This document shows positions 15,821-37,105 of a stretch of DNA of 43,542 nucleotides, piece by piece. The stretch's first letter is position 1. Each line of letters starts with the position of its first letter. Position numbers and translations under genes: made by a program. The stretch is from a virus, in IMG/VR virus record IMGVR_UViG_3300011013_002353, positions 1-43,542 of that record; one strand, written 5' to 3'. The notes beneath the pieces were generated by a model. The model saw only the letters and a program-made list of their open reading frames with translations, did not search any database and was not told the DNA's origin.

Positions 15821-16309
15821 ATGTCGTATGATGAGCTTTCGATGGGATTAAAGCCTCCATTCTGGAGCGTTATGACTCCAGCGACCACTTATGTCAGACC
15901 TGAATCAGAGAACCCAACAGACCAACTAGTATTTCTTCCAGAGGATGGAGATACAAAGCAAGCGGACCCGGAGAGCTGGAAAACTGATAAGGATTTTGAG
16001 AAAAGTATTAAAGTAAATAAGAAACTTGGATTAAGTCTTCCAAGGCTGGGCTTGAAAATATTTGTGGTTAGTTTTCCTAATTTAGGAGATGAGATTTTAA
16101 ACTATGTTGATAATAAAAGGGTGCCGCTTGGAGAGATATGGGTTTCAAACTTAGAGCGTAACAAGGCAAAGTTATTAAAAACTATACTTTATTGTTTTTT
16201 AGTAGTCAAAAACAATTACACTAGGGACGATGCAAAAAGAACGGCGGACTCTATTTACAAAGCACTATCTATTATAGAGGGAGACCAAAATAATGACAAA
16301 GTTAGATGA
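15821..16309 (+). CDS. Unknown protein, virion-block
   Basis: 162 residues with no recognised family. The N-terminal third is Pro-rich and extended (MGLKPPFWSVMTPATTYVRP). A mixed alpha/beta segment follows (LPRLGLKIFVVSFPNLGDEILNYVD), then a C-terminal helical part (RNKAKLLKTILYCFLVVKNNYTRDDAKRTADSIYKAL). The ATG abuts the upstream stop, and the next gene starts 17 nt before this one ends. Confidence 0.55.
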   Translation: MSYDELSMGLKPPFWSVMTPATTYVRPESENPTDQLVFLPEDGDTKQADPESWKTDKDFEKSIKVNKKLGLSLPRLGLKIFVVSFPNLGDEILNYVDNKRVPLGEIWVSNLERNKAKLLKTILYCFLVVKNNYTRDDAKRTADSIYKALSIIEGDQNNDKVR

Positions 16310-17921: not shown

Positions 17922-20609
17922 ATGCCATTAGGAAGAAAACCACAGAGCCTAGAGCTATTAAGCGAAGGAGTGCTCGAAAGAATTATCATTAGTGTCAATG
18001 CTGGAGTTGAAGTAGATAGAACTCAATATAAAGGGATACAGTTACGTGTAGACAATGGAATAGCAGAATTATTCGTTAGAAAATCCTTGCCCGGTACAGT
18101 CTATTTCGGTCTTGATGCTCTTTTAAAACTGTTATCGGGGAACACAACCATTCGATCTATTTATGCTCTTTTTATGAAAGGTAATATTGATAGGCTTGTG
18201 TCAGAAGACATACTGGTCTCTTCAGAATTGACAGAGAAGAATGAGCTCAATGCAAATGCTCTCAAGGAATTTTCTGCTAAACTAGGCGAAATGAGCGGAA
18301 AATCAGCTGTCATGATGAAAGAGTGGAGTACATCAAATAAAGAAGAGCTACATTATTATATGTCTACTATGGTTTCTGATGTGGCAGAAGAGAATGTGGA
18401 GAGAATAGTTCAAAATTGTTTAGTTGTGGTGGACCGCTACAAGAAGTCTAAGAAAATTAAAGAAATCACGGCGTCCCAATTATCTATTTTTATTGCGACT
18501 GTGCTTGGAGATCATATAGATAGGTTAAAGCCTGCTTATCACCCAAGTGTAAACCATAATTTGGTAAAGAGCATTCGGCGTGATATGGATAGTATTAAAA
18601 TTGACCCCAGTGATTTAATACCTATGGTGTCTAATTTTAGTATGGATTCTTCACAGACGGGTTCACGTATGTCAAAATTTATAAAAGGTCGTTTTCGTAC
18701 TCTACTAGGTAAATTAAACTACATTGTTTCTGAAGCCATCAATGCTCTCGCTTCCGAGTCGGGGGATATCGCCGATGCAATTATGAGAATACTTAAGCAA
18801 TATATGGAAAAATTATCCTCCGTAAGGAATGCGAGTATGGGTATGCGTGGGCTGGCTATCGGTGGAAGACTTCTGTTCGCAGATGACGCAGCTGCTATTT
18901 TGGGTTCACTGTCAGAAACTATCGAAAGTGTAATTAGTGCAATTGCTATAATTAGGAATATAGCACAATCACTCGATGCGGCTAAGGATAGTATGAATGT
19001 GCAATACTTAGAACGCGTTCTGGCTTCTATTATTATGTCTGGTGAGAGTCAAGCAGATGTTGGTCGTGGGCTTGACGAAATATCTTCTCCATTTATTAGT
19101 GGATTGAGATTTCCATCTGACGTGGCTATTCCAAAATCGGAAGACGATGTCTGGAAAGAATATCCACATGAACAAGAGATGCTAAGAGCAGCAAATCTAA
19201 AAATATTGTTGAAAGATATGAGTTTATCATTGGTGGACAACAGAATGTATACCGATGCAATAAGATTAGCCAAATACGCGGCGACTGTTAGTGTATCTTC
19301 AGCAGTATCTGGAGAAATAGAGAGAATAAATAACCTGATGACTGCGATGGGATCTATGAGGTCCACAATTGTTCCTTCTATGAAGATGCAGTACCCCTTT
19401 AGGGACGTGGCTGTAGTTGTGATGGGAAAACTAAAAGACAGCTATAGAAGCGAGGAATATGGTACACAAAGTATTGAATCTATAGCTATCCCCCTAATGA
19501 AAGCATTACCTACAATTAATAATCATTTAGAATTGCTTGAGTCAGTAGAGGGATTTGTATTTTCATATACTATGAATAATGATATGTATGATGCTATCAA
19601 TCGTACACTTAACCGTACATTCGAGGCGAAAATTAGTGAAGAAGTTGGTAATAGGTATCAAAAGACCAGAGATAGAGTATTCGTGCTTAGACGGTTTAAG
19701 GATAGTCAACATTTCTCTACATTCTTAAATGAAGAAGCCATGCTTTTATTTGCTATAGCGTTAAATAGCTATGAACCAGGTGGTATAGACCTTCTATTAG
19801 AAAACTTATTTAGTGATACAGACTTTCAAAATAAAGCGGATTTCTTAACAAGTTTTATGGAATCGCTAGGCTTAGAATCTATGGCGGCGATTAACGAAGA
19901 TCCGACTTTAAAGCATATAGGTATAGCAGTTCAGCATGATCTCGATGAGCTTGGAATGCCAGCTGTGCCCGGTGCAAAAGGTATTTTTCATGCAGCGTGC
20001 CAACTATATAGAACTTGTTCAATGTATAGCATGCTTAATAAAAGATTAACTAATAAAGCACGTCATTATCAAGAGGGGATTTACAAGGTTGGAGAAGACG
20101 TGGCAATGTTAATAAAAGATGGTAAATTAGACGATTTTAAGTCTTTAGTGACGGCGGCAGTGAGGTCTGATAGTTATAATGATAAGTGTCCATTCGGTCT
20201 TAGTATCCCTAGCGCATGTAAATGCGTAGGAAAATATATTGACAAAATGCAGGTTATTTTGCCTAACGATTCGCCTCGGGATATAGATGAAAAACGTAGA
20301 ACTAATAGGCTGTCAATGGAGAGATTGGAGAGAGACAATAAGAAGTGTGAAAAATGTAAATATGCAAGGTCTTTTATGCAAGCTGAGAGTGGTTTACAGA
20401 GTGTTGTATGTAATTACGGTGAGGCTAATGCTGGAGTCGGCTCAGTTGATTTTACTGAAGGTGTAGGTGCAGCATATCCGACTTCGTTTTGGGCTGGGCT
20501 GTTTACTATACCTAGTGCTCTTGGCCCAGAGGCTAGAGATTCCTGGTTTGCTCGTTCGCCCGGGGCAACTCCATTCGGGATGACACAAGTAACTTTACCT
20601 GGGTTATAG
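17922..20609 (+). CDS. Large unknown protein with C-terminal Cys clusters
   Basis: 895 residues. Residues 1-740 are largely helical without recognisable motifs. From about residue 756 there is a Cys-rich region: CPFGLSIPSACKC, then KKCEKCKY, then VVCNYGEANAG. This spacing looks like a bound metal site, zinc or Fe-S. The last 60 residues are Gly/Pro/aromatic-rich (AYPTSFWAGLFTIPSALG). ATG is preceded by TAGGAG. No family is recognised. Length and context suggest a virion protein. Confidence 0.58.
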   Translation: MPLGRKPQSLELLSEGVLERIIISVNAGVEVDRTQYKGIQLRVDNGIAELFVRKSLPGTVYFGLDALLKLLSGNTTIRSIYALFMKGNIDRLVSEDILVSSELTEKNELNANALKEFSAKLGEMSGKSAVMMKEWSTSNKEELHYYMSTMVSDVAEENVERIVQNCLVVVDRYKKSKKIKEITASQLSIFIATVLGDHIDRLKPAYHPSVNHNLVKSIRRDMDSIKIDPSDLIPMVSNFSMDSSQTGSRMSKFIKGRFRTLLGKLNYIVSEAINALASESGDIADAIMRILKQYMEKLSSVRNASMGMRGLAIGGRLLFADDAAAILGSLSETIESVISAIAIIRNIAQSLDAAKDSMNVQYLERVLASIIMSGESQADVGRGLDEISSPFISGLRFPSDVAIPKSEDDVWKEYPHEQEMLRAANLKILLKDMSLSLVDNRMYTDAIRLAKYAATVSVSSAVSGEIERINNLMTAMGSMRSTIVPSMKMQYPFRDVAVVVMGKLKDSYRSEEYGTQSIESIAIPLMKALPTINNHLELLESVEGFVFSYTMNNDMYDAINRTLNRTFEAKISEEVGNRYQKTRDRVFVLRRFKDSQHFSTFLNEEAMLLFAIALNSYEPGGIDLLLENLFSDTDFQNKADFLTSFMESLGLESMAAINEDPTLKHIGIAVQHDLDELGMPAVPGAKGIFHAACQLYRTCSMYSMLNKRLTNKARHYQEGIYKVGEDVAMLIKDGKLDDFKSLVTAAVRSDSYNDKCPFGLSIPSACKCVGKYIDKMQVILPNDSPRDIDEKRRTNRLSMERLERDNKKCEKCKYARSFMQAESGLQSVVCNYGEANAGVGSVDFTEGVGAAYPTSFWAGLFTIPSALGPEARDSWFARSPGATPFGMTQVTLPGL

Positions 20610-20660: not shown

Positions 20661-21419
20661 ATGGACCATAATAATGATAAAGAGATAACAGTAATAGCGT
20701 CTGCGGCGCTAGACGATATAGAGGTTAGAGACAAGGGGGCAATTTCTAAGGAGGCGTTTGGACGTACCGTGTCTGATGTTGATAATGTTTCTTTTTCTGG
20801 GAAGGAGGCTTATGGTAAAAGTTTGGAGACAGCTATAGAGTTTCTGTGGAAGAAAGTAAATGATGGTGTGAAAGTATCTCCTGATAGTAAAAGTTCGGTG
20901 GAGAGGGCGGCAGCTTATTATGCTATGATAGATAAGAGTATATCTGATATTGTTAAGTCGGATGTTACGGCTTCGATTCCGGATGAAAGTATGGATGAGT
21001 TTGAGAAAATGCGTACAGCTATAAATGACAAACATCGTGCTATTCTTGCTTCGGTTTTATCTAAGCACTCTAAACCAGATGAGGACATTTGTGAACAGTG
21101 TGGGATGCCTTTATTCGGTGACCACTGTCTTATATGTGAGGATAAGTCTGGTCAGCAGTCTGACGGTGAACTAGTTAAAAATGCGGCTTCCCCATCTCTA
21201 CAATTCTTTGAGAATGGTTTTATAGTCGGACTGGCTACAGATATTTCTAATTATGTTATTACGTCCGGTTTTAATCTTAATGACGCGATTAAAATTGCTA
21301 AGGATAGCTTTGATCTTTCTCCTAGAGAGGAGTACAGATTGAGAAAGTATTTAAATTATATGGGTTATATGGCTCCTCAGATGATCTGGCTTCCAGCATC
21401 AGAAGTTAAGCATAGTTAG
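20661..21419 (+). CDS. Unknown protein with central zinc ribbon
   Basis: 252 residues. A short zinc ribbon CEQCGMP...DHCLICED lies near residues 147-165. It is flanked by an acidic/polar N-terminal half (with ISKEAFG near 28-34) and a helical C-terminal domain (NYVITSGFNLNDAIKIAKDSFDLS). TGGAGGA precedes the ATG. It is the third Cys-cluster protein in this block. Function is unknown. Confidence 0.57.
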   Translation: MDHNNDKEITVIASAALDDIEVRDKGAISKEAFGRTVSDVDNVSFSGKEAYGKSLETAIEFLWKKVNDGVKVSPDSKSSVERAAAYYAMIDKSISDIVKSDVTASIPDESMDEFEKMRTAINDKHRAILASVLSKHSKPDEDICEQCGMPLFGDHCLICEDKSGQQSDGELVKNAASPSLQFFENGFIVGLATDISNYVITSGFNLNDAIKIAKDSFDLSPREEYRLRKYLNYMGYMAPQMIWLPASEVKHS

Positions 21420-21430
21420 GAGAAATAAAA

Positions 21431-21964
21431 GTGAGCGTATTAGAAAAGATTAAAGATGCCATGTCAAAACACGGACGTAAAATTTCTTTGTCAGGTTTGG
21501 TAATTGAAGGTAATTCAGTTGACGAAGACGGCGAAGCTACTCAATTTACTGTAAAGATTACACCTGATATGAAATATACAGATTATTTAGACGCGTTTGA
21601 AGAGTCTATTTTAAATACCGGTGGCGATGATGATAGAGAAATGACACCGGCGTCAGAGAATAAGAAAAAAAATTTTGATAGATTAGTTAATGTTGATAAA
21701 CCTGAGCGCACTGAGGAAGAGACCACTAATGGTTCTAAATCTAAGCGCTCTAAGAAAAATACCGTTAAGGAAGAGACCACGAATAAGGAGTTTCTGAGGG
21801 AGCAGGCGCTAAAAAAGGGCTGGACAGAAAAAGTTGTAAATGACCCTATGATAAGTTATTTATTGTCTACGTTAGCGACTACTTCTCCGGATGAAATGTT
21901 CCCTCACACACCTCCGGATGATATTGATGCGCAAGAAGTTCTACAAAAATTCTTGACACAGTGA
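21431..21964 (+). CDS. Unknown charged protein
   Basis: 177 residues. A small N-terminal beta-containing segment (KISLSGLVIEGNSVDEDGEATQF) is followed by a highly charged, low-complexity centre (EETTNGSKSKRSKKNTVKEET) and a short C-terminal helix-rich part. The start is GTG with AGGAGA about 10 nt upstream. Its stop overlaps the possible GTG start of the giant gene, so the two are probably translationally coupled. Confidence 0.52.
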   Translation: MSVLEKIKDAMSKHGRKISLSGLVIEGNSVDEDGEATQFTVKITPDMKYTDYLDAFEESILNTGGDDDREMTPASENKKKNFDRLVNVDKPERTEEETTNGSKSKRSKKNTVKEETTNKEFLREQALKKGWTEKVVNDPMISYLLSTLATTSPDEMFPHTPPDDIDAQEVLQKFLTQ

Positions 21965-21972
21965 GGACTTGC

Positions 21973-24900
21973 ATGAGATTATATAAATTCGCTGATGACT
22001 ACAATAATCGCGGGAAGGCGTTTTCCAATATAGAGAAACAGACAGCAATAAGCAATTTTTGGGAAGAGAGTAAAGAAAAACGCGAGTCTAATCCCCGTGA
22101 TATTGGTTTTGGTGATAACTTCTTCGGTGAAGGCGGAGCATTATCTACTGGTGATGTAAGTAAGCCACCCGTAGCTTCTGGGTATGATGTTTGTTATATT
22201 ATGCAGAGTTCTGGCCGATTCAAGTATATAGATAAGTCGAGTGGGGCTATGGTTCTTGTTCATCATGGCAATAGGGCGGCGTTATATCTCAGCGAATCTG
22301 CAATACCTAGCGATGATAAGGGATTATATGAGAAGAATTCGGAATCGGTTAGAAGATCTATTTCATATATATTGATGAAGCAACTAGTTTCTGGTTTTAT
22401 CTCTCCTGCCATAGAGAGTATGCCTTCGGATATACCAGAAGAAGAAGGGGCAGTTCCTAGTGCCGAAGAGATAGTTAATGATATGTCTCATACGGATGAG
22501 TTTAATCGGGTTGTTTCTATTACATCGGAGATAACTGGGCCTTCTATTAAGCCAGAGGTAAAGGAAACTATTAACGGACTTTTTAACACTCTATTAAGTG
22601 ATGCCAGGCTTCTTAGGATAGTAAAGTATAATCCTGGTTTTAAGAAAACTTATTATGATAGATGGGTGACTCCCGGTGGGTATGATTTTAGTAGTTTAGT
22701 ATTTGGTATTGCATCTGCGGTATTTTCATATAACATTAAGGCAGTTAGAGCTACATCGGCGACGGTTGCGATCCCTTCTATGTCTGAACATGAGGTGCCT
22801 GGAGTAATTAGGGAAAAGATAAATGGTTTTACAAATATTGAATCTTACGATATTCTTGTCATTTTGAACGGTATCACGTCTGAATTGTATAATGATGTCC
22901 TATTTGGTACGACTCAGTTGGGTGGAGACAATGTCAAGTATGCAGTACTTGACAAAGACGGCGAGTTCGTGACAGTTTCTAATATAACTAATGCCACAAT
23001 TATAGCCCCGCGTGAGGCACCGGAAAAATATGTGGAACGCGGTAAATATTATCTCGTATTTGCGGCAGTTAATGCTGGGCCTTCTATATCACATTATATG
23101 GGCTCCGGTATTAAGCCTTATATATTACAAGTTCGTAATGCGCAAGATGTTTATAGCGATTTTAGACTTATGCCTTTATCTGATAAGGAAAATAATCTTG
23201 GTAGGTATCCTTTTGTTTTATTTGATAGCGGTATGAAAGCGGTGCAGTTAGATTCTGATGTTATAGATAGTGTCTATAAGTCGTATTATAGCTTTGAAGA
23301 AGCTCGTAATGCTGTTATAAGTGATGATTATGCTGGTCAGGATGTTATTTTTAATGACAAAGAAAAAATGGCGTATACTGGGTCTGGTGCATTACACGTT
23401 GTTACCAAAATAAAAAGTCCTTGGAAACAAAATCGCGATGGAAAACTGAAAATTATTAGTACTACGACTGAGGGTGGTATAAGAGGTATTTCAGTGTTGC
23501 CGAGAATGATCAAAGGGCCAGATGAAGATGGTAACTATGTTTTATCTACTTTCAAAACCGGAAGGGCTTCGAGTGATATTTTATTAACTTCAGAGAGGAT
23601 AGATATGGACATTACCGTGGCCAAAATAGTTAGTGTATTGGGCTTTGGCTATGTTCCACTTGAAACTGGCGTCGGGGCATTAAAGAGCGAGGTTTTATAC
23701 GGTAATATTGTGGAGATGCAAGAATACCTCATAAAAAATGATGATAATTCTGGAGTATACTTAGAGGAACTTTCGGGAACATTCATGGCGGTTCTTCCTT
23801 ATGTTGAAGAATCGTTCTATATTGAGATACCAAAAGAGTTTAAGAAATTAGTTGATACAGCCAGTAACCCATATTTCTCTCTTACTTCAGCATTGGTTGA
23901 TAGTGGTATACTAAATAGGCAAGATACAGATAGGTTTAATAGTTTAATAAACTCTTCGCTTGATAACGAGTCTGGTAGTGGTATTCTGGCTGCACTCAAT
24001 ATTATAGACAAAAATAGTTTATCAGATAAAATTAATCCTATGAAAGATTTAAGAAATGTTTTTAATTCTGTTGAGCCGCCAGAACTTGCTTCCATGAACG
24101 AGGAAGAGCGTGATAAGTATCTGGTTAAGGAATTTAAGAACTCATATTTTGCTAACTATGCGGATGGTAGTTCACATAGAATGTTGGAATATATTGAGAA
24201 GGCATCAATGATATCAATGGATGATTTCGGATTCTATGTAAGTCAGCCGGTCCAATTCGGGCAGTTTAATACTAAAAGATTATCCGGTGACTTATTCGCA
24301 GCTAATATGATTGAAAAATCTTATGATGATTACGGTGCTATCTATAGCTTTAACATATATAGTTTTGAGAGGAGTGGTGGCCATCCACTAAAAATTGATA
24401 CTGTTAGGACTAGGCTAGCACCCGGTTCTGATCCACAGAGATTTTATGCCATAGGTTCGTTAGAAGAGCAGGCAATTTCTGATATGCCTGAGTATAATAT
24501 TAGTGGGAAGTCTCCGGTAGTTACTCGTCACAGACCAGAGACGAGCAAATTCAATTTAGGAAAATATTTTGATGTATATGTTTTTGCTAATAATCCTTTA
24601 ATGATGTTATTAGTTCGTAAGTTAGTAGATAAATACGCCTATTTATTTGGTATTGAAAAGGGGGGATATAGCGAATTACTTGACAATGCGTATCGTAATT
24701 GTTATAGAGTAATATATGATGTATCAAAAAGAGTCGCGGGCAAAAATAATGTGCCAAGACTAGCAGCGAGAATTGTTGAAGCATTATTATCAATGGATGC
24801 GTCTGAAAAGACTGGCGTTATACTAAACATAGATGGTAAACGAGTAGAATTATCTTTGGAAAGTATTATCCCTCCCATTTTTGGTATTGCAGATGAAGAT

Positions 24901-27900
24901 GGAGAAGCTGTATATGCAGATTACGCTTCTATATCGGACGATCCGAGGTATAAAGACCTTCTTAAGGCCTCTTCTAAGGCTCTTGCATCTATTGCCGGTC
25001 ATCAACTAGACGTGGTTGAAAAAGAGGAGAAACACGAGGCAGATATCGGATTTGTTGAAACTCCAAATTATATTTATGAGAATGGAGAATATATTAAGGG
25101 GATTAAGGGTACATATATTTCATTGAATGGTGTAGGCGGTGACGTTTACGGCCCAATGTCTCCCTTTAAGATAAACACCGGTGAAGGTATTAGATATTAT
25201 TTGATTGATTCTCTAAACGCGATTAGATGTTCATCGAAAGTTTTGGGGATTGATAGTAAAGATTCTTATGCGGGAATAATATCGCCTGATGATATTTGGA
25301 TGCTGAAGTCCACCTCTATCAAACAGGCTATTATTGCTGGCTCTCAAGGAAATACAGATGTCTTTGCTAAACTTGAAGAAGACGAGGCAAGGCTCGCTGA
25401 GTTAGAGGGTCGGCTTAAAGAAAAAGAGAGGGACTTGGAGAATAATATCGGTGTTAGCTTAGAAGAGTATTCATCTATTGATCAAGAGATACAAGATATT
25501 AAAAATAAAATTCAATCATTATCAAATAATATTAAGAATGATAAAAGGACTGTGGAAACAATTAAAATACATAATAATGGTATGACGACCTTAGCTTATA
25601 AACATACATCTGGTGGTAATAATTTATTTTTATTCTTAAAAAGACCAGACAGTGCTGGTTTCCCTGATGATATTTCTAAGGTTAAAAACGAAGATAATGT
25701 TGAATGGTGGGAGGATAGATTAGGTAATAGAATCAATATTACAACTGCGTCACGTTTAGACTCGGTAACGTCTACATGGAGCGATACTTTTACTGAGAAA
25801 GCAGTTAATTATAATCCTAGTGTAGAGTCTTCAGTAATTTCAGTATATAATGATATTAAAGATCGTTCAGAGGGCCAAACAAAATATCTTCCTAACAACA
25901 TGTATCTTTTGATATTGTCTAAAGCAGAGCCCGGCATGGTTATTACTGATGATATGCTTCGTGGTATAGCGGAAGCACTTTTTCTGGAGGATAGAGAGGG
26001 CACACTTAAGAGAGTAATACACGATTATTTGCTGAATTTGAAGAAAAATAATAATAGAAATTATAAAAAAATTGTCTATTCTGCGATGAAGACAGCTTAT
26101 TCTGATGAGTGGTCCGTTGAAAGTGTTGCAGATGTGATATGCAAGTTTGTTTATGATAATGCGGATATATTGGGTTCCATAATTAAATTTAGAGAAAATG
26201 ACGATCTTCTGGAAGTGGATTTTAAGCAACCATCTAATAGTTATATGAAGTTTACCACTGGGACGGCAAGATCAATTTGTAAACTATTTGCTAATCTTAA
26301 TCCACAATATATAATCGGTGATGGGATGTTACCATTTCTCCGTGCTCTGGTTAAAGCTGCAATCAGTCATGGTCTTGATGTTATTTTGAATAATCGAACT
26401 CTTCGTGATAGACTATTGTATAAGTTTAATGGGTTATATGATTTTTCTTCTGGTGATAATGAAAAATTTATTGTCGATATGACAGAATTGTTTATGGCTG
26501 TATGGCTAAATATGAGGATTAGAAAGCCAGAGTTAAGGAAGGTTTACGTTGGAGTAAGAGAAAAAGACAGCGTTGCCTATATGACATCAGCGTATAAGAA
26601 AGCAAATAGATTTGGTATATTTGATGGAGATCCACTTAATGTTGCGGATTCTTTATTTGCAAGTGAGCATATTGATGAAATAGCGCAAGCCTTTTTGATG
26701 GACCTTGTATCTAGTCCGGTAGTGGCTAATTATGTCAAGAGAAGACAGGAAGATTTTGCGAATTACGCCGCGTCTTCTGTTGTCACTGCTGATAGTATAG
26801 ATTCATCTATGAACGATTCAATTATTAAATCTACTATTTTAGGCGCGCTTGGTTCTTTTGCATATTCTATCGTTGATATGTTTGACCGTGAATTTTCTAT
26901 AATTAAGGACGAATACCATAATGTCCTAGCAGAAGAGTATATGGATGATTTAATTGATGAAAGACGACGGGTACTTAATGCGATTAATAGCGGTGAGCCT
27001 ATATCTGAGACTCCAGTCAAGGATAAAGTTATAGGTGCAAGAGAAGCAAACATTACCAAGGCCTTTCATAGAGCGTTTGAAAGGTACAAAACTAAATTCG
27101 ATGGGTTCTATAGTCAATCTGGGAATTCTGAAAGTATAGCTGCTGTTTCAGGAATAGGTACTGTATGGGCGTCTGATGCTGATTCGGCGTTTATTATGAA
27201 TTTATTACAATGTTTGTTTAGAGACCAAAATTTTGCTTTTTTGCTAGCTTCGACAAACAAAAATCCACAAGGTATGTCGTCGGTTATAAAAATATTAAAG
27301 TCCGTTTTAAAGAATCATCCTAAGTATTCTAAGGTGGTAGATCAATTTAGTGATTCAGACCTTTTTCAATATGCTAGGGCGATTTATGTACATATGCTTT
27401 CTGACAGTGTTTTGCACGAACCAGGGAAATCTTATTTATCCCCCAGTTATGGTGGGGAAAGTCTGCGTGGGTATATGAAGGATTTAATTGATGAGGGAGA
27501 GTTCGAGAGTCTAGCAGGATTAGATTCGGATAGTCTATATGTTGTTAGAAGGAAAGACAAGAAGCGTATTCGAATGAATGTTATGTCGGTTGGTATATCT
27601 GGTCAGATCCAATCGTATAAAGATATGAAGACATTATTAGTTTCACTTCCTGAGCCGGAGATAGGCTCAGTTGTAGCATTGGAAAAGCCATATAATGGAA
27701 ACTCATTTTTCATATATTCAGGATTGTCTGAGAGCAGCGGTAAGGATACCATAGTGCCGGTATGGGATCCTGTGAAGATTATTAATGGTCGTGCGGTTTT
27801 TGATACAGGATTATTCAACGATATAGATATTGGGTTTGGAGGTAAAACGTGGGATGGCGAGTTTAAACATGTTTTGGGTATTATGGACCCATATTATAAT

Positions 27901-30900
27901 AGTATTAGTTATGTGCCTATTGCAGATATTATAAAAAGTAAGGTAGAGGATGATGATAGTTTGAAGAGAGAGAACATACATTATGATACTAGACTTGCTG
28001 CAAAGTTGAGCGAAATATCTTCGGTGGTAAGTAATTTTAGAGCTTCTTTTCATGGTGTTACGGCTGATGCGGATATCCATAATTCCTTTGCAGATGTAAA
28101 TTCCATTGCTAAAGGTGAGGCAGGTAATGTATCTAATGTATTAGTAAGAACAGTTGATGCTTTAGTACATTTATTTGCAGAGAAGAAGATAGTTTATAAA
28201 AAGTCTAGGGACATGGATAAACTTTTGGAAGAATTAAAAGAGGAACTACGCAAGGGCCCAGTTACTATAGTAAAGGCTAATGGCAAGGATATGAAAGTTG
28301 AAATACCATCTGCTCTGATTGATGCTCTAACTACAAAGACAATTAAGGATCTAGCAAATAGACTAAGAAAAGTTAGGGATTTTGAAACTCAATATAGAGA
28401 TGGTCTTGTGATTATGGAAACTGAGTTGGCAAAGGGATTGCATTTTGTGGCAAACAAACTTGGCTTGCGTATTTCATCTAAGCTTGGTGTAGATAGTGAA
28501 TCTATCCCGTTTACTAACTCTGAAACCATGTCGGCGTATGACAAAGTTTATGAGCATTTGAGATTTATATGGGACGCTCTTCCTACGAGCACTAAAAAAG
28601 CTATTGCTCGTGATGGATTAGGACAATCGGAACTATCTGAGGCTATGTCAGATGTGACAAATGATGATTATGCTATGAGGGATTGGATTGACTTGATGCT
28701 TAGTAGGGAAGCCCGAGGCGGATTAGATGTTGTTAAGAGTCTTTCATCTTCGTGGTCGTCTATGGCGGAAAAAGTTTCAAAGGCAATGCACTTATATTCT
28801 ACGGAAAAGATTTCTAAATCTAAAGCTGGGGAGTTGATAGATAATCCTGAATCAATTTCGCACTTAGATATAGCTCATGGTAGTCTTAGTATAATTAATG
28901 GTCTAAATCAATATGAGCGTAGGCGTGTAATAACTCCCGCTTTGATAAGTTCATCTGTTCTAGGTATTATGCGTTCTGTGGTTGATGAGGCTAGAAAGTT
29001 ATGGAAGGAGATAGAGAAAAAAGAGAATGACCTAAGGGATAAAGTGCCAAGTCTAGCAGAGTCTATTATAGATAGTCTCAGACATGCTAAATACCCCTAT
29101 GAATTGCCAGAAGATATAAAGAATAAAATTAATTCTATACCAGATAATAAAACTAGAATATACGTCTCTAATGCGTTATCGCTTTTTAGCGGTGAAATTG
29201 ATTATAGTGGGATATGGAATGGCCCTTCTTTAAGAGAAATAAAAACCACGCTTCATGACGACGATGGTTTTATCAAGACATTAGACTTGTTACTAGAAAA
29301 ATATCCGGATGATGTAAACTATATTAAGTCCAAATTAAGGGAGAAATTCGGTGATGATTGGAATACAGAACTAGATAATGCTGCTGCTAGAATGTCTGTC
29401 AAGGTGCCGGAGTCTTCTAAAATATTTACTGTTGTCGGTGCTCACTTTAGTCCTGAATTTATTAGTATTAGCAACAAGGACGTGGTTGATAATAATGTTT
29501 TTGGTATTAGAAATAAAGTAGCGAGTGCGCATACTGCTCTTTGGGATTTAAGGGCCAGAATGAACAAAGAACTCAAGAATAATGAGTTCGATGAGAAGAC
29601 TATTAGAGATATAAACAAGTTTTATAGTACAGAGTTGAATCGTAGGTTAGAGGACGCGGCGAGGTCTCTCTCGTCTAAGAATATGAAAATCGATGCAGAT
29701 GCTCTTATAAAGAGCATTGAAAACAAACAGAATTTTGCTAAGGTCTTGGAAGATGATGTTGACAATAGAGTATTAGGCAGTGGGTATTTGAGGGGGCTTT
29801 TTGAGGAAGTTATAGCTCCAGCGGCGGCTATAGCTATGAAAGGCAAAGAAACAAGGAGCAATAAACTTATCTGGTCGGTTTTAAATACAATTAAAGATAA
29901 TGTTGATGTGGCCTTTGAGAAGATAGATAATATGATTAACTCCGGGTTGTCGGATGCAGTCGGTCTGGGTAAATTTAAAAGATATATTGATTCGGTAAAA
30001 AAAGAGCTTTCGTCTCCGAAGTTTGCTAATTGGGTTATAGATAATGTGACAAAACCAATAGGTGAAGAGGATTCAAAGACCACAAAAACTATATTCACTA
30101 ATAGTGAAGGTGTTTTGGGTACGAAAGATGAAAGATTGAGAGTTCTGTTTTCCAGATGGGTTTCGCGTGATAATGTTAAGATGATTTTTAATTCACTTAA
30201 GGATTTGAAATCGTCAGATGCGGAGGCTTATAAAAAAGAAACTGATGAAATGAGGGCAACAATCTATGCTGGTCTTTTATCCCGCTCTAAGGAACTAAGC
30301 AATGAACAGATTTCAAAACTTTATAATATTATTCTGAAGTTTATAAATGATGATTTAAAATCTCTTAATGAGGTTGAGAATCTTAACGGTTCTATTGACG
30401 CTCCGCCAATAGGTATTGAAGTTGTTATTTCAGACGCCCGGCCAGGGGTAGCTAAGAAAGTTTTGTCAGCAGAGGAGGCTATGAGTAAGCGTCATATTAG
30501 ATATGCTGATGGCGGAACTGTTATGAGCACTGAAAATTATAACAGATTTCTTGAAATGCGTGGAACACTGGTTGCTAGATATCGGGCTTCTACAGGAGTA
30601 TATTGTGCTATTAAAGGCGGGCCGGACGGGAATTATACAGTTTCAGGTATTCCAGACGAGATGGTGTTTATGTCTTCATCTGTTTCTAAAGTTAATCCTC
30701 TCGTTATTGTAGATATGGAAAGAATTGTAAATTTCTATAATAGCCATTCTGATGCAGATCCTATATCTGTAAAGGATCTTACTGTGCAATGGCTTAATGC
30801 GAATATGTCTGAGTTTAATAAAATGATGTCTGGTGTGTCTGAGTCTGAGCGTGAAGATATACGAAAAATATTTGATAGATTACTTTCTCCTCATCAAATA

Positions 30901-33900
30901 AATAATGAGAATAGAGCAACCATATACGATCTAATTGACAATGGTCAGGTCACTCCAAAAATGCTTTCTGGTGCTCTTTATAATTATCTTAAAGAGGTTG
31001 GGTTACCGAATGAACAGGTTATTAAGCTGGTCAAGCGTGCTGCGAAAAGGGATTATGGTGCCTATAAGATCACCCAGGCTGGTCGTAAGGCTGTGGTATA
31101 TGATAGGGAAAGTAAGAGTTATAAGTCTATTCCTGAGAATGAAATGTCAAAAGGAGCATGGCATAGGGGATGTGTTGTTAAAGTAAATGATGACATAGAT
31201 AGAAAGTGGATGCGGGCAGAGTTGGAATCTAATATAGATAATATTACATATAATCAAGAAGAGATTATTAGTGATCTTGCATCTGAAGAAGTAAAGAGAT
31301 ATAATGCTCAGGTCTTAAAGAGTATAAATGATGGGACTTCTATAGTTTCACAAGTTAATGATGGTTGCAGAGAATGGCTCATGGTAATTTATAAATCTTT
31401 GAATTCTAAAAAAGACGAACTTTCCTTGGCCATGGCTAATTATATGAAACGTACATGTTTAGATGTAATCGATTTTCATCCTGTTAGAATTACTGGTTCG
31501 GGAACAAGGGGCTTCTTATTGTTTTCTGGTGATGGTATTCCATTTGTCGGAGATGATAGCAAGACAAGGTTGTTTTCTATGGAAGACCTTTGGAGTCTTT
31601 TTGGCGCCGCTAAAGAGCGCAAAGTTGGTAAGAGTGCGTTAGTACGCAGAGTTATTAACCAGGATAATTTAAATAAACTCCTAGATAGTATGAAGGCCGG
31701 TGCGGTAAGGCTAGGGGCGCCATATTATTTCGGTTCTGATATTTATAAATATACGGAACAAAATACTAATGGTATAATCAGGGAGTACAGGTTTAGTATC
31801 GACAATAAATCTGGAGATGTCAAACTCCATCCGGTTATAGTGGCATCCGGCGTAGCGACTAGCGGTTCAAATACTACGCTTACAGATATCAACACTATAG
31901 AATCCTCATCGTCTAAAAGAGGTAAGAAACGTAGAATAAAACCATTTGATAGGTTTAGGAATGTTAATGGTTTAAAGTTAGAAGTGATTAGGGATGGAGA
32001 AACTATATTTCGTACATTTGTAACTAGTCTAGCGGGCGATACGGTGGTATTTGCCCAACAGTATGATTCTGAAGCAAACCCAATTGAAATTAAAAGTGGA
32101 GATAAATATCGTTTGACTTATCCATTTAGCATAGAGAGATCGTCTTATGTCCCGTTGGCGTCTTCTGAAACAGGAGCGGGTAAATATAGAGTTTCCGTTA
32201 GCGCAGGAGATTTGATGGCGATGGTGAAATCGTTGAGTGAGGAGGGGATGCTTAGTAGAAAAGAGCTTCTGAGGAAATACTATAGTGCCGTACAAAGAGT
32301 GATAGGTTCAATTTCCCATTCAAAGTTTTTCGGTGGACTTAGAAAACGTATGAAACAGATGAAAAGGGAAGAAAAAAATCGCATGGAGCGTCGTGAGATT
32401 AGTAAAAGAATAGGCGATTATTTATTTTCTTTAGGTGAAATGTTCAAAGATGAGTATAGCATTGTTGACAATACGAGTAGAGTATTGACAGACAAACTGT
32501 TTACAGAAAGAGGTAGTAATATATTGGCTAGGCTTGTGATTAAGAGAGAGGGTACGGAAGCCGGATTTGGTGAAGTATTATATGACTTGTATCGTAAACA
32601 GATAATAGGCGAGAACGTGACGGCTGCATTTTTGTCTAGCTACACAGGCGAGAATTTTGAACGGATGATTGACGACTATAACAGACTTGAGCTTCGCTCT
32701 AATATAGTTGCGTCGAGTACTAGTAAAGATAAATTTAGACATGATAATATGGTTAAGGAGTGGACTAAGATTTTCCGTGATAGATTAAAAGTTGCGGATA
32801 TTGAGTCTATTAAGTCTAGGATTGCGCGTGAGAAGGCTGAGAGAGACAAACTAAATAAAGTTATTTCTCAAATGGAGTCTTTAAAAAAGAAAAAAGCGTC
32901 CTTAGGCAAAGAAAAGACAGATATGCCAGTGTCTTCGTTTAATATATCTCTTGTTAATGCTAGGGCTTTGGTACACCAGCATGAAGAAGAGATTGATAGA
33001 TGGAATAGATATTTGGAGTGGGCTAGAAACTACTCCAAGGCCATTAGAGAAAAGAATAATAATCCCAAGCTATTAGAAGAAATTGAATCAAAAATGGAGT
33101 CGATTGCTCTATCATTTGCGCCGCTAACGTCTAAAGATGTGCTTAGGATGGTCAAGAATCGTAACAGACTTGGAGAAGAAATGCACCCTGAGCGTATTAT
33201 CAGTAAGGACGAATTCAAGTCTGCTGCAAAAGCAAGGATTTATTATAATGCTGTGAAGAATTTAGCAATGAAAGATTTTTCATCTCTTATGAATATGCCT
33301 TTTATACCTGTTCCTGGTAATAATGCGTTGAGAAAGAAACAACGTGGTGTTACTGTGGCTTCTGATAATATGAAAGAAATAATAAGCGAGACACGATCTA
33401 AAGCAAATATCCATTCTAAGATTTATGATTATTATTCTTTAGGGACTCTTTGGGTTATGATGATGAGAAATAAAAATGGAGATATTTCTGCCAAAGATAG
33501 TGCGCGCGCTAAAGAATTATATAAAGAGTTTTTGATGGAAGAGGCAAGAGGAATAGCAGATTGGTATAATTCGGTGTTTGGTAAAAAATTAAAAGTGCAT
33601 GGAATTAGTAAGGCGTCGGCAAAGAAAATATCAACGGTGAGTTCTACTGGGCCACTAGAGGTTAATGATAAAGTATTAAGTCGGAATGCAGATAGAATTG
33701 TGAAGGCGATTGTGTCTGGTGAGCCGATCGGTGATATTACTTTTGTGCTAGGCCATAGTGCTGTTAATTATTTATTTCCATTGCAAAATAAGATGCTTCT
33801 GAAAGAGTTGCTTAGAGACGACGCAGTTTCTTGTGCAGATATAAAAATAGATGAAAATACTATGAAGTCTATGGGAGTGACTGCCGACTATATGGAATCA

Positions 33901-35022
33901 GCAAAACAGTATATTAATCGTAGTCTATACTACGAATTGTTTTTAAAACATGACCTAGCGGATAGAAACTTGATAGGGACTGCACAAATAATATCAAAGA
34001 CTGGCCCAGGAGAACTTTATAGGACGATGTTTAATGGTCGTTTCGGTGAGGAGAATTTATCTGATGAATTAGAGATTGATCTAGCAGACCCATTGTTTTG
34101 GCCAGACAGCGGTAATAAGACGGAAGGAAATAATGGTCCATTTACTGAGGCTGGGATTGATAGATTCTCGAAGCTATTATTTGCCAGGGATTTCAATAAA
34201 GTAAGGCCATTAAGGCTATGGGGAGTAGACATGGAACCTTTAATAATTGGCACTTTTGATGTTGAGCCGACAATCGAGGTTAGGGAGTCTGATATGATTC
34301 CGGTAACCACTTTTGATACTAATACTACCACTGGGTATATTTCTGATGATATGCAGCAGGCTCAGGGTACTCTACCTTGGGATTGGGAAGAAAATAGCTC
34401 TGTTGGGCCTAGTGTAGTAGAACCAGGAGTAAGGGCAGCGACGCTAAAGTTGACTAGAAAAATTACAGCAGAAGAGATTAGGAAACAAGAGCTTATATTA
34501 AAACTGGCTTTGTTTGAGGGGGCGCATTTTGGTTCTCGGCTTTTTAGGGGATCAGATAGCAAAATGTCTAAGATTAAGAAGGAGTGGATAGATATTATAA
34601 ATAATCTAGGAGAATTAGATGATATGGACCCAAAAGTACGAGACTCTTTAGGCAAAACGTTATTTGATGATTTTGTTGCCTTTATATTTTCTGAAGCTAA
34701 TATACATAAAACTATGGATGACCTGCGTGCATTATTGAATAATCTTAATCAGATTGAGACTACCAGAGAAGTGTTCTCAGATATAGATATCCCTTCTGGG
34801 TTTATAAATAGGGTATTGGGGTATGATTCTCCATTATTAGATAAAATGAAAGAGATTATAGAGTTATATCACGATGATAGCTTTAGAAATTATATGAGAC
34901 ATATAGTTGATGAGGCGTTTACTTCAGATTTAGCAACACCTATGGACTCCAATTATGAGAATAATGAGGGTGAAGAAAGCCCAGCGGGCTCCATATTATC
35001 TAGGAACTTAGCAGGTATGTAG
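21973..35022 (+). CDS. Giant protein of about 4349 residues, unknown function
   Basis: One uninterrupted frame of about 13 kb, roughly 490 kDa. I recognise no family. It seems to be an array of helical domains alternating with small beta-rich modules (for example DNVKYAVLDKDGEFVTV, GSVVALEKPYNGNSFFIY, YCAIKGGPDGNYTVSG, GLKLEVIRDGETIF). Clear coiled coils lie near residues 1130-1198 (ARLAELEGRLKEKERDLENN) and 3605-3650 (ESIKSRIAREKAERDKLNK). The C-terminal 300 residues are acidic. No signal peptide or membrane helix is evident. A GTG at 21961 is in frame, but ATG 21973 with GAGGA 5 nt upstream is a better start (MRLYKFADDYNN). Location just before terminase suggests a virion or ejected protein; a polyvalent injected protein or an inner-body component are both possible. 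Confidence 0.75.
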   Translation: MRLYKFADDYNNRGKAFSNIEKQTAISNFWEESKEKRESNPRDIGFGDNFFGEGGALSTGDVSKPPVASGYDVCYIMQSSGRFKYIDKSSGAMVLVHHGNRAALYLSESAIPSDDKGLYEKNSESVRRSISYILMKQLVSGFISPAIESMPSDIPEEEGAVPSAEEIVNDMSHTDEFNRVVSITSEITGPSIKPEVKETINGLFNTLLSDARLLRIVKYNPGFKKTYYDRWVTPGGYDFSSLVFGIASAVFSYNIKAVRATSATVAIPSMSEHEVPGVIREKINGFTNIESYDILVILNGITSELYNDVLFGTTQLGGDNVKYAVLDKDGEFVTVSNITNATIIAPREAPEKYVERGKYYLVFAAVNAGPSISHYMGSGIKPYILQVRNAQDVYSDFRLMPLSDKENNLGRYPFVLFDSGMKAVQLDSDVIDSVYKSYYSFEEARNAVISDDYAGQDVIFNDKEKMAYTGSGALHVVTKIKSPWKQNRDGKLKIISTTTEGGIRGISVLPRMIKGPDEDGNYVLSTFKTGRASSDILLTSERIDMDITVAKIVSVLGFGYVPLETGVGALKSEVLYGNIVEMQEYLIKNDDNSGVYLEELSGTFMAVLPYVEESFYIEIPKEFKKLVDTASNPYFSLTSALVDSGILNRQDTDRFNSLINSSLDNESGSGILAALNIIDKNSLSDKINPMKDLRNVFNSVEPPELASMNEEERDKYLVKEFKNSYFANYADGSSHRMLEYIEKASMISMDDFGFYVSQPVQFGQFNTKRLSGDLFAANMIEKSYDDYGAIYSFNIYSFERSGGHPLKIDTVRTRLAPGSDPQRFYAIGSLEEQAISDMPEYNISGKSPVVTRHRPETSKFNLGKYFDVYVFANNPLMMLLVRKLVDKYAYLFGIEKGGYSELLDNAYRNCYRVIYDVSKRVAGKNNVPRLAARIVEALLSMDASEKTGVILNIDGKRVELSLESIIPPIFGIADEDGEAVYADYASISDDPRYKDLLKASSKALASIAGHQLDVVEKEEKHEADIGFVETPNYIYENGEYIKGIKGTYISLNGVGGDVYGPMSPFKINTGEGIRYYLIDSLNAIRCSSKVLGIDSKDSYAGIISPDDIWMLKSTSIKQAIIAGSQGNTDVFAKLEEDEARLAELEGRLKEKERDLENNIGVSLEEYSSIDQEIQDIKNKIQSLSNNIKNDKRTVETIKIHNNGMTTLAYKHTSGGNNLFLFLKRPDSAGFPDDISKVKNEDNVEWWEDRLGNRINITTASRLDSVTSTWSDTFTEKAVNYNPSVESSVISVYNDIKDRSEGQTKYLPNNMYLLILSKAEPGMVITDDMLRGIAEALFLEDREGTLKRVIHDYLLNLKKNNNRNYKKIVYSAMKTAYSDEWSVESVADVICKFVYDNADILGSIIKFRENDDLLEVDFKQPSNSYMKFTTGTARSICKLFANLNPQYIIGDGMLPFLRALVKAAISHGLDVILNNRTLRDRLLYKFNGLYDFSSGDNEKFIVDMTELFMAVWLNMRIRKPELRKVYVGVREKDSVAYMTSAYKKANRFGIFDGDPLNVADSLFASEHIDEIAQAFLMDLVSSPVVANYVKRRQEDFANYAASSVVTADSIDSSMNDSIIKSTILGALGSFAYSIVDMFDREFSIIKDEYHNVLAEEYMDDLIDERRRVLNAINSGEPISETPVKDKVIGAREANITKAFHRAFERYKTKFDGFYSQSGNSESIAAVSGIGTVWASDADSAFIMNLLQCLFRDQNFAFLLASTNKNPQGMSSVIKILKSVLKNHPKYSKVVDQFSDSDLFQYARAIYVHMLSDSVLHEPGKSYLSPSYGGESLRGYMKDLIDEGEFESLAGLDSDSLYVVRRKDKKRIRMNVMSVGISGQIQSYKDMKTLLVSLPEPEIGSVVALEKPYNGNSFFIYSGLSESSGKDTIVPVWDPVKIINGRAVFDTGLFNDIDIGFGGKTWDGEFKHVLGIMDPYYNSISYVPIADIIKSKVEDDDSLKRENIHYDTRLAAKLSEISSVVSNFRASFHGVTADADIHNSFADVNSIAKGEAGNVSNVLVRTVDALVHLFAEKKIVYKKSRDMDKLLEELKEELRKGPVTIVKANGKDMKVEIPSALIDALTTKTIKDLANRLRKVRDFETQYRDGLVIMETELAKGLHFVANKLGLRISSKLGVDSESIPFTNSETMSAYDKVYEHLRFIWDALPTSTKKAIARDGLGQSELSEAMSDVTNDDYAMRDWIDLMLSREARGGLDVVKSLSSSWSSMAEKVSKAMHLYSTEKISKSKAGELIDNPESISHLDIAHGSLSIINGLNQYERRRVITPALISSSVLGIMRSVVDEARKLWKEIEKKENDLRDKVPSLAESIIDSLRHAKYPYELPEDIKNKINSIPDNKTRIYVSNALSLFSGEIDYSGIWNGPSLREIKTTLHDDDGFIKTLDLLLEKYPDDVNYIKSKLREKFGDDWNTELDNAAARMSVKVPESSKIFTVVGAHFSPEFISISNKDVVDNNVFGIRNKVASAHTALWDLRARMNKELKNNEFDEKTIRDINKFYSTELNRRLEDAARSLSSKNMKIDADALIKSIENKQNFAKVLEDDVDNRVLGSGYLRGLFEEVIAPAAAIAMKGKETRSNKLIWSVLNTIKDNVDVAFEKIDNMINSGLSDAVGLGKFKRYIDSVKKELSSPKFANWVIDNVTKPIGEEDSKTTKTIFTNSEGVLGTKDERLRVLFSRWVSRDNVKMIFNSLKDLKSSDAEAYKKETDEMRATIYAGLLSRSKELSNEQISKLYNIILKFINDDLKSLNEVENLNGSIDAPPIGIEVVISDARPGVAKKVLSAEEAMSKRHIRYADGGTVMSTENYNRFLEMRGTLVARYRASTGVYCAIKGGPDGNYTVSGIPDEMVFMSSSVSKVNPLVIVDMERIVNFYNSHSDADPISVKDLTVQWLNANMSEFNKMMSGVSESEREDIRKIFDRLLSPHQINNENRATIYDLIDNGQVTPKMLSGALYNYLKEVGLPNEQVIKLVKRAAKRDYGAYKITQAGRKAVVYDRESKSYKSIPENEMSKGAWHRGCVVKVNDDIDRKWMRAELESNIDNITYNQEEIISDLASEEVKRYNAQVLKSINDGTSIVSQVNDGCREWLMVIYKSLNSKKDELSLAMANYMKRTCLDVIDFHPVRITGSGTRGFLLFSGDGIPFVGDDSKTRLFSMEDLWSLFGAAKERKVGKSALVRRVINQDNLNKLLDSMKAGAVRLGAPYYFGSDIYKYTEQNTNGIIREYRFSIDNKSGDVKLHPVIVASGVATSGSNTTLTDINTIESSSSKRGKKRRIKPFDRFRNVNGLKLEVIRDGETIFRTFVTSLAGDTVVFAQQYDSEANPIEIKSGDKYRLTYPFSIERSSYVPLASSETGAGKYRVSVSAGDLMAMVKSLSEEGMLSRKELLRKYYSAVQRVIGSISHSKFFGGLRKRMKQMKREEKNRMERREISKRIGDYLFSLGEMFKDEYSIVDNTSRVLTDKLFTERGSNILARLVIKREGTEAGFGEVLYDLYRKQIIGENVTAAFLSSYTGENFERMIDDYNRLELRSNIVASSTSKDKFRHDNMVKEWTKIFRDRLKVADIESIKSRIAREKAERDKLNKVISQMESLKKKKASLGKEKTDMPVSSFNISLVNARALVHQHEEEIDRWNRYLEWARNYSKAIREKNNNPKLLEEIESKMESIALSFAPLTSKDVLRMVKNRNRLGEEMHPERIISKDEFKSAAKARIYYNAVKNLAMKDFSSLMNMPFIPVPGNNALRKKQRGVTVASDNMKEIISETRSKANIHSKIYDYYSLGTLWVMMMRNKNGDISAKDSARAKELYKEFLMEEARGIADWYNSVFGKKLKVHGISKASAKKISTVSSTGPLEVNDKVLSRNADRIVKAIVSGEPIGDITFVLGHSAVNYLFPLQNKMLLKELLRDDAVSCADIKIDENTMKSMGVTADYMESAKQYINRSLYYELFLKHDLADRNLIGTAQIISKTGPGELYRTMFNGRFGEENLSDELEIDLADPLFWPDSGNKTEGNNGPFTEAGIDRFSKLLFARDFNKVRPLRLWGVDMEPLIIGTFDVEPTIEVRESDMIPVTTFDTNTTTGYISDDMQQAQGTLPWDWEENSSVGPSVVEPGVRAATLKLTRKITAEEIRKQELILKLALFEGAHFGSRLFRGSDSKMSKIKKEWIDIINNLGELDDMDPKVRDSLGKTLFDDFVAFIFSEANIHKTMDDLRALLNNLNQIETTREVFSDIDIPSGFINRVLGYDSPLLDKMKEIIELYHDDSFRNYMRHIVDEAFTSDLATPMDSNYENNEGEESPAGSILSRNLAGM

Positions 35023-35031
35023 AGGATAGTT

Positions 35032-37008
35032 GTGTCTAAAAAGGCAAGGCTTTGTAAAATTTGTAAAACATCTGTCTCTATACCGGGGTCTGATTTGTGT
35101 AAAGAGTGCGCTGAATTTACGCATGACAACGGGTCTAATATTAAATCAGTTAAGGTAGATCGTGGGCTTTTATCTGATATAGTAGACTCGTTTGTAGATA
35201 TTGACGTTGTTAAATGGTGTGAGAAGCATGTCCAATTACCAGATAGTGACAGGGCTTTCAAAATTAATGGTTGTGGAAGAGAATATTTAATAGAGCCTAT
35301 GACCTACATAACATCAGATGCTTTGCAAAGAGACGGATCTCCGGTGGTAATATTAAAGGGCAGACAGGTGGGTATGTCAGTTACCATTACTTCATTATAT
35401 TTATATCTGATGGCGTCTGGTTTGTATGATAGTCTTAGAGTTCTCCATGCTTTCCCCGGTTTATTGGCGACTAGTGACTTTCATAAGACTAAAGTAGAAC
35501 CAATGATTATGAAGTCAGAATATATAAGGAGAAGACGATATACAAGAGAGACAATGGGGTTCGATGAGTCATCTAAGCGTGTGTTTGCTAAACCTAAGTT
35601 GGTTGGAACGTGGACGGACCATTTGAAGGCGTTCCAGTCTAATAATATGCTTACTATTAATGCTACGGCTAAAGATGCGGGACGGCTTCGTGGTCAGACT
35701 TTTCATATTATATTATTTGATGAAGTCCAAGATATGACACGTAAGGCAATTGAAAATGTTGAAGAATCGTTGACTACCTCGCCTTATGGGCCTCCAGGGT
35801 TAGGTGTTAGAGTATATTTTGGTACTCCGTTTTTAGAAGGTAGTAACTTTCATAATCTATGGGAGAGCAGTGATCAGAGATATTATCATCCTAGATGTCA
35901 CACTTGTGGTAAAACCTATCAGTTTTATACGTATGGGAGCGATGATTGGGAAAAGATATGGATAGAGTCGTTTTTATTTAAATGCCCTCATTGTGGAGCC
36001 ATTGAAGACAAACGCGAAGCCATGAAGGACGGAGAATGGGTTCCCACTAAACCAGATGCCACAAAACGCGGTTATCATTTTAATCAACTTTATACGCCTA
36101 CTATTCCCAAGGAGGCTATCATGATGAAGAAAAATGATAAGCTTCCTCAGCAGTTTAAGAATGAAGTCTTGGGGGAATTTTACGGTGGCATTCTTAGTAG
36201 TGAGTCTTACAGGGAATTAGTTTTGTCTTGTACAGACGAGGACGAATCATACGTAGATTACATAGAACCTTATGTCCATCCAGTGGTAAGTATTGGAGTG
36301 GATTGGGGTGGTAAAGTAGAGGAACAGTCTCTAGATGGTTCTTGGACTGTTGCTCTTGTAATGACTGAAGAGGATGGTAAGTTTTATGTAAGGCATATGG
36401 AACGTATAGAGACTAAAAATCCTGAAGAGCAGATTAATAGAGTAAAGCAATTATTTTCAAAGTATTCCATAGTGCAGGGGGTCGGTGATATGGGATATGG
36501 ACAAGATAAAATTTGGTCACTCCAGAGTGAATACGGAAAAAGGTTTATGGGTTGTCATAGCGTTCCTTCTAAAAACATATATAATTATAATGAGAAAGCA
36601 ATTCCACCATTTATTAGTATTAATAAAGATATGGTAATAGATGAAGTATTATCGTTGTTTCGTAGCCATAGGATTGTTTTACCATATAAGAATGAGAAAG
36701 ATCAACTATTAACTGAAATACTTACCACAGAGATTTCAGCAATTATGCCGACAGAAAGGATTGTGGGTGGTGCTAGAATTAGGTCTTATATGCAACGAGG
36801 TTCACAGACTATTGATTCACTCATGGCTTTAATTTATGCTTATGTGGCTGTCAGATTCAGTATTTCTAATGGGTTTACTAATATGCAGTCACATGGTTAT
36901 AATAATAACCGTTCTATGCCGCTCCCAAGAAAATTTTATTCTGTAGATGAAGCGTCTCTTCTAAGGCTAAAGGATAGCTCTTCGAGAGCTCTAAGACGAA
37001 AGAGATAG
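35032..37008 (+). CDS. terL: Terminase large subunit, GpA family
   Basis: 658 residues: the DNA-packaging motor ATPase and genome-cutting nuclease. An N-terminal zinc-like segment (CKICKTS...LCKECAEF) is followed by the ATPase. Its phosphate loop KGRQVGMS (109-116) lacks the usual GK[ST] lysine but has a lysine at the first position, as in the deviant Walker A of lambda gpA. Walker B IILFDE is at 226-231. An inserted zinc finger (C289, C292, C318, C321) separates ATPase and nuclease, typical of the GpA group. Nuclease acidic residues are D424 (SIGVDWGG) and D486 (GVGDMGYG), with TIDSLMALIYAY as the last motif. The GTG start has AGAGGA 5 nt upstream. Confidence 0.9.
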   Translation: MSKKARLCKICKTSVSIPGSDLCKECAEFTHDNGSNIKSVKVDRGLLSDIVDSFVDIDVVKWCEKHVQLPDSDRAFKINGCGREYLIEPMTYITSDALQRDGSPVVILKGRQVGMSVTITSLYLYLMASGLYDSLRVLHAFPGLLATSDFHKTKVEPMIMKSEYIRRRRYTRETMGFDESSKRVFAKPKLVGTWTDHLKAFQSNNMLTINATAKDAGRLRGQTFHIILFDEVQDMTRKAIENVEESLTTSPYGPPGLGVRVYFGTPFLEGSNFHNLWESSDQRYYHPRCHTCGKTYQFYTYGSDDWEKIWIESFLFKCPHCGAIEDKREAMKDGEWVPTKPDATKRGYHFNQLYTPTIPKEAIMMKKNDKLPQQFKNEVLGEFYGGILSSESYRELVLSCTDEDESYVDYIEPYVHPVVSIGVDWGGKVEEQSLDGSWTVALVMTEEDGKFYVRHMERIETKNPEEQINRVKQLFSKYSIVQGVGDMGYGQDKIWSLQSEYGKRFMGCHSVPSKNIYNYNEKAIPPFISINKDMVIDEVLSLFRSHRIVLPYKNEKDQLLTEILTTEISAIMPTERIVGGARIRSYMQRGSQTIDSLMALIYAYVAVRFSISNGFTNMQSHGYNNNRSMPLPRKFYSVDEASLLRLKDSSSRALRRKR

Positions 37009-37044: not shown

Positions 37045-37100
37045 AAAGGAGGACGGTGCATTTCATGGTGTGGCAAACTGTTGTGATTACTTGCACCTAA
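37045..37100 (+). promoter_or_regulatory. Strong RBS and 11-14 codon leader ORF before portal
   Basis: AAAGGAGG at 37045-37052 is the strongest Shine-Dalgarno site seen here, but it is badly placed for the portal frame. It best serves a tiny frame beginning GTG 37056 or ATG 37065 (MVWQTVVITCT) that stops at TAA 37098-37100, 5 nt before portal ATG 37106. This resembles a leader peptide with coupled reinitiation. The alternative is portal initiation at GTG 37070, 17 nt from the site. Confidence 0.4.
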
Positions 37101-37105
37101 TTATT

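Follow-up and report, generated by a model that had tools for sequence, protein, structure and literature searches.

A 4,349-residue phage protein of no known family, encoded beside terminase and portal: candidate head cargo

Large proteins encoded with phage heads

Several kinds of phage encode very large proteins alongside the genes for their heads. Polyvalent proteins (Iyer et al. 2017, PMC5512222) are very large, lineage-specific products of genes lying among the late virion genes, and it is this late-gene context on which the published argument for their packaging and injection is built. They are defined by combining domains of disparate activity. The cargo proteins of crassviruses (PMC10172136), which include an RNA polymerase, and the head ejection proteins of SPN3US and phiKZ-like phages (PMC5694885, PMC10052503) are likewise large and encoded with head genes. 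SPN3US has a five-subunit RNA polymerase, a prohead protease and head proteins with N-terminal targeting peptides in common (PMC5694885). The N4-like virion RNA polymerase, given as 3,398 aa for phage DEV in PMC10925440, is a single giant product of similar size to the one we describe here.

Our window is the whole stretch of DNA analyzed, 43,542 bp. It is an entire IMG/VR record (43.5 kb), and so a fragment of a larger phage. Within it is a giant gene that invites comparison with all of these systems. Like the polyvalent proteins, its product is very large and lineage-specific, it lies near late virion genes (in four lineages), and the head block of sister phages in its group likewise encodes clear multi-enzyme proteins. 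Unlike them, it has no recognizable enzymatic domain; a polyvalent protein has at least two recognizable domains of disparate activity, and Pfam finds no domain at cut-off in the giant or its two full-length homologues. There is no sequence link to crassvirus cargo or to the SPN3US and phiKZ-like proteins, and the polymerase motifs of both systems are absent from the giant. The clade, like SPN3US, has a prohead protease, and the N-terminus of the window giant is a weak candidate for a targeting peptide. The N4-like enzyme differs too, the giant having no polymerase motif or profile match. With neither the polyvalent domains nor the polymerase motifs, we place it in no known family. Bacillus phage G and uncultured huge phages have head genes in common with the window; the giant family was absent from all 17 other large related records tested, phage G and Rctr197k among them.

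The giant gene and its neighbors

A replication block (split DNA polymerase III alpha, RecA-like, RuvC-like, primase and sigma-like genes) precedes the head block of the window. The head block runs 12630, 13830, 14170, 14930, 15821, 16293, 17922, 20661, 21431 and the giant, followed by terminase, a portal with an intein, small genes and the prohead protease. The main features are these.

16293..17849, + strand: companion of 518 aa, matched in position by proteins of 547 and 550 aa that are only 17-20% identical to it
17922..20609, + strand: 895-aa companion protein; same clade, fast evolving, conserved C-terminus with cysteines
20661..21419, + strand: 252-aa conserved head-block protein
21431..21964, + strand: protein of 177 aa immediately before the giant, with a stop codon that overlaps an alternative GTG start
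21973..35022, + strand: the giant gene; product of 4,349 aa and 489 kDa, in no known family
21973..22002, + strand: N-terminal peptide MRLYKFADDY, a weak candidate for a head-targeting peptide
31849..32470, + strand: better conserved central segment (residues ~3293-3498; GVATxGSNxxLxD ... RNVNGLxLxV ... GDxY)
34495..34935, + strand: helical domain at the C-terminus (residues ~4175-4320), with good conservation in four lineages
35032..37008, + strand: terminase large subunit (GpA-type ATPase)
37070..39985, + strand: portal protein with intein (about residues 405-750)
41832..43541, + strand: prohead protease, open at the record's end

The giant stands in a continuous same-strand block with terminase, portal and prohead protease, and the terminase gene starts ten bases after its stop. 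A reading of the sequence alone had described a single gene of about 4349 codons filling 30 percent of the window with no recognized domain, and every part of that description holds. The single open reading frame has 4,349 codons, from an ATG at 21973 to a TAG at 35020-35022, and its 13,050 bp are 30.0% of the record. A ribosome site, GAGG, lies 7 nt 5' of the ATG; the alternative in-frame GTG is at 21961. The protein, of about 489 kDa, has a pI of 5.8. Composition is even along the whole gene, and the length of the frame is far above chance. Pfam gave no match above cut-off for the window protein or for either full-length homologue, PHROG matches to the giant were all at E >= 0.012 and those of a PDB profile search all at E >= 0.59, none of them significant; the homologues likewise had no significant match in the three collections. 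BLAST-level searches against phage records found no match, nor did k-mer scans of viral and genome contigs with the whole giant or single-sequence pieces of it. By these comparisons it resembles nothing of known function. Profile searches with companions 16293 and 17922 gave no solved relative.

Relatives in other huge phages

Relatives of the giant were reached only by way of its neighbors and its end: a portal alignment, a terminase alignment and later a C-terminal alignment. The portal alignment led to three closer lineages in IMG/VR: G019 (27.8 kb), G020 (44.4 kb) and G021 (332.7 kb). The ends of G021 overlap by 132 bases at 126 identities, which makes that contig nearly circular, and a fourth contig is identical to it over a shared 18 kb. 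In all four lineages, the window included, the giant lies directly before the terminase, which is followed by the portal. Full-length homologues have 3,891 aa in G020 and 3,988 aa in G021, where the giant is the longest gene of the sole near-complete related genome checked. G019 has only the C-terminal part, in two overlapping frames at the start of the contig; the frame changes near a CAAAAG run (L030:1944-1962), which may be a real split, slippage or an assembly error. With two independent contigs that have a homologue at this position, and a third, partial one, the giant frame is not an assembly artifact, a possibility that the sequence-only reading had said would undo it.

The surrounding order is conserved as well: 12630, 14170, 14930, a protein of 518-550 aa, one of 835-895 aa, 20661, a short protein, the giant, terminase, portal and protease. 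A counterpart of 13830 was detected in G021 only. Beyond this clade, identity to the Bacillus phage G counterparts is about 37% for the window portal and protease, and the portal is 38-47% identical to those of many uncultured huge phages in IMG/VR. A scan of the viral collection with the C-terminal domain returned already known lineages only; it depends on short conserved peptides, so remote members of the family can be missed.

How has the gene fared over time? The giants of G020 and G021 share 66.6% identity across 3,818 aligned residues, with dN of 0.25 and dS saturated, and pN/pS is 0.20-0.39 in every 300-residue bin, pS being saturated. In this pair purifying selection acts on the giant from end to end. 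The window giant is just 25-26% identical to these two, against about 40-58% for most window neighbors with a detected match, and so evolves fast; companions 16293 and 17922 show a similar rate of divergence. The gene is thus real, conserved, fast-evolving and undescribed, and is confined to a narrow clade of huge phages. The important role that had been suggested for it from its size gains support from full-length retention in independent lineages and from selection over the whole length.

Features of the protein

Little in the protein itself points to a function. The sequence-only reading saw repeated small beta modules, which we do not support: tile profiles of the three full-length giants, compared with themselves, gave no off-diagonal match at E < 0.05. 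Two of its other observations were borne out. No membrane helices were found, and the DxDGD motif of RNA polymerases is in none of the three giants, nor is there a Pfam or PDB profile match. No Walker A, zincin or CxxC motif is common to the three. Their 663 identical columns contain no cysteine and two histidines. Cysteine makes up 0.25-0.33% of the giants versus 1.04% of the other window proteins and 1.53% of the G021 proteome. Low cysteine content weakly marks the virion-block proteins of the same genome (P = 0.05 among long proteins).

AlphaFold was applied to both ends of the G021 homologue. The C-terminal 1,089 aa had a mean pLDDT of 41.7, and the last helical domain is the only part of the giant modeled with confidence; the N-terminal 1,138 aa, at a mean of 29.1, were unusable. 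Foldseek matches of the C-terminal model were rejected as noise.

The N-terminus MRLYKFADDY resembles those of prohead proteases in these phages (MLIKLGEA, MTLYKFAEI, MGFYKFADS) and that of an unrelated 976-aa protein, MRLYKYSDD (G021:283171-286098). It fits a pattern taken from the group's prohead protease N-termini, which only 2 of 2,120 non-protease proteins fit; the pattern was drawn up after the window giant's N-terminus had been seen. The G020 and G021 giants (MAFILYSAKGK, MAFTLYSAKGK) do not fit. A general K-x-A protease-site motif showed no clear enrichment in late proteins.

What the giant may be

The sequence-only reading proposed an ejected protein or a scaffold of the virion. The gene's location among the head genes fits a virion role, and so do the large multidomain proteins encoded there by sister phages. 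If one follows the reasoning published for polyvalent and ejection proteins, the best reading is a soluble protein packaged in the head and probably ejected, to which we give roughly even credence. Such a protein would be made late, along with terminase and portal, and would enter the prohead, perhaps by way of its N-terminal peptide. It would be stored in the head with the DNA, probably together with companions 16293 and 17922, and would most likely pass out through the contractile tail and act as infection begins. We counted in favor a position that four lineages share, purifying selection in every bin, low cysteine, the sisters' large head-block proteins, the published late-gene argument and the protease-like N-terminus of the window giant. 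We counted against it that no domain, fold or catalytic motif ties the giant to any known cargo protein, that the N-terminal motif is missing from the G020 and G021 homologues, and that the cysteine difference is weak. A more specific proposal is made tentatively: the giants may be an undescribed, apparently non-enzymatic family of head cargo in a replaceable region beside terminase and portal, where sister clades hold other giants.

The same head-block position would be expected of a structural protein that stays inside the head, be it a prohead core or scaffold, an inner body or an organizer of the portal vertex, and a sequence without a conserved enzyme motif, its identical columns free of cysteine and with two histidines, would suit one. 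Yet sister phages build heads without the giant family, and a scaffold could be supplied by the long extensions of the clade's prohead proteases, enzymes with a total length of up to 982 aa here and about 1,200 aa in sister phages; we regard a structural role as unlikely, though it is one of the two main rivals. Fast divergence suits host-facing proteins, and the giant might work outside the virion in host takeover or intracellular organization and merely be located in the late block. That seems improbable for a gene ten bases before the terminase and identically placed in every lineage.

Size and position also recall giant virion polymerases, as in N4-like phages or crassviruses, and the related genomes searched yielded no beta or beta-prime subunit of bacterial type. 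Against a very divergent polymerase, virion RNA polymerase or other, stand the missing DxDGD and profile matches, and the sigma-like protein encoded by the phage, which suggests use of the host polymerase; we consider this very improbable. Giant tape measures exist, and length alone would admit the protein to their number. It has no membrane helices, however, and the tail cluster of G021 lies elsewhere. At 41-105 kb are a probable sheath (by sequence appearance), hub/lysin, spike, baseplate and alpha-rich tape-measure candidates, across the contig junction from the giant, which is with the head genes at 312.6-324.6 kb. A tape measure is scarcely credible.

Other giants in sister phages

In the terminase-portal-protease region of sister phages are other multidomain proteins, large and lineage-specific, with enzymatic or nucleic-acid-binding domains, and this suggests that huge phages may use the region for large exchangeable cargo proteins. 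Such cargo in sister clades would include anti-CBASS-like and DNA-ligase domains, and the region would offer a practical route to injected proteins in uncultured phages. If packaged and ejected, the giant itself, at close to 490 kDa, would rank with the largest single chains delivered by a phage and would test the passage of so large a chain through a contractile tail.

The sister proteins are varied. Rctr197k has a 2,175-aa GNAT-bearing frame between terminase and portal; homology to the giant was rejected (hhalign probability 0.3%). A 1,406-aa head-block protein (L034:14813-19030) has CCA/polyA polymerase, HD and 2H phosphoesterase/Acb1-like (anti-CBASS) domains. An ATP-dependent DNA ligase occurs in head-block multidomain proteins at L180:15921-21704, L177:15810-20963 and L194:17814-21704, some of which also match ASCH, DJ-1/PfpI or LigD PrimPol-like domains. 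Directly after the portal, L067:9776-14317 and L165:6310-10845 encode proteins of about 1,510 aa, which between them have S4 domains plus a collagen-like stretch, and many winged-helix matches. G021 encodes a 1,185-aa fusion of polyA/CCA polymerase and topoisomerase IB (G021:286738-290292; L111:8739-12293), near the 976-aa protein with the MRLYKYSDD N-terminus. On visual comparison, the C-terminus of the window's 252-aa protein is similar to a sister-group protein of 313 aa, likewise encoded just before the terminase.

Some smaller observations concern the genomes at large. The portals of G020 and G021 (964 and 938 aa, aligned over nearly the whole length) appear to have an intein too, and L018 has inteins in both portal and terminase. 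G021 has 29 predicted tRNA genes, among them an ARAGORN call at 14708-14783 with anticodon CTA (amber-reading), and still uses TAG as a stop. The DNA polymerase III alpha of the window is split into a PHP-domain gene (276-1178) and a polymerase gene (1154-3676) in overlapping frames; that of G021 is also split (292441-293337, 293297-295849), and in several sister phages (L022-L025) it is one gene of 1,171-1,203 aa.
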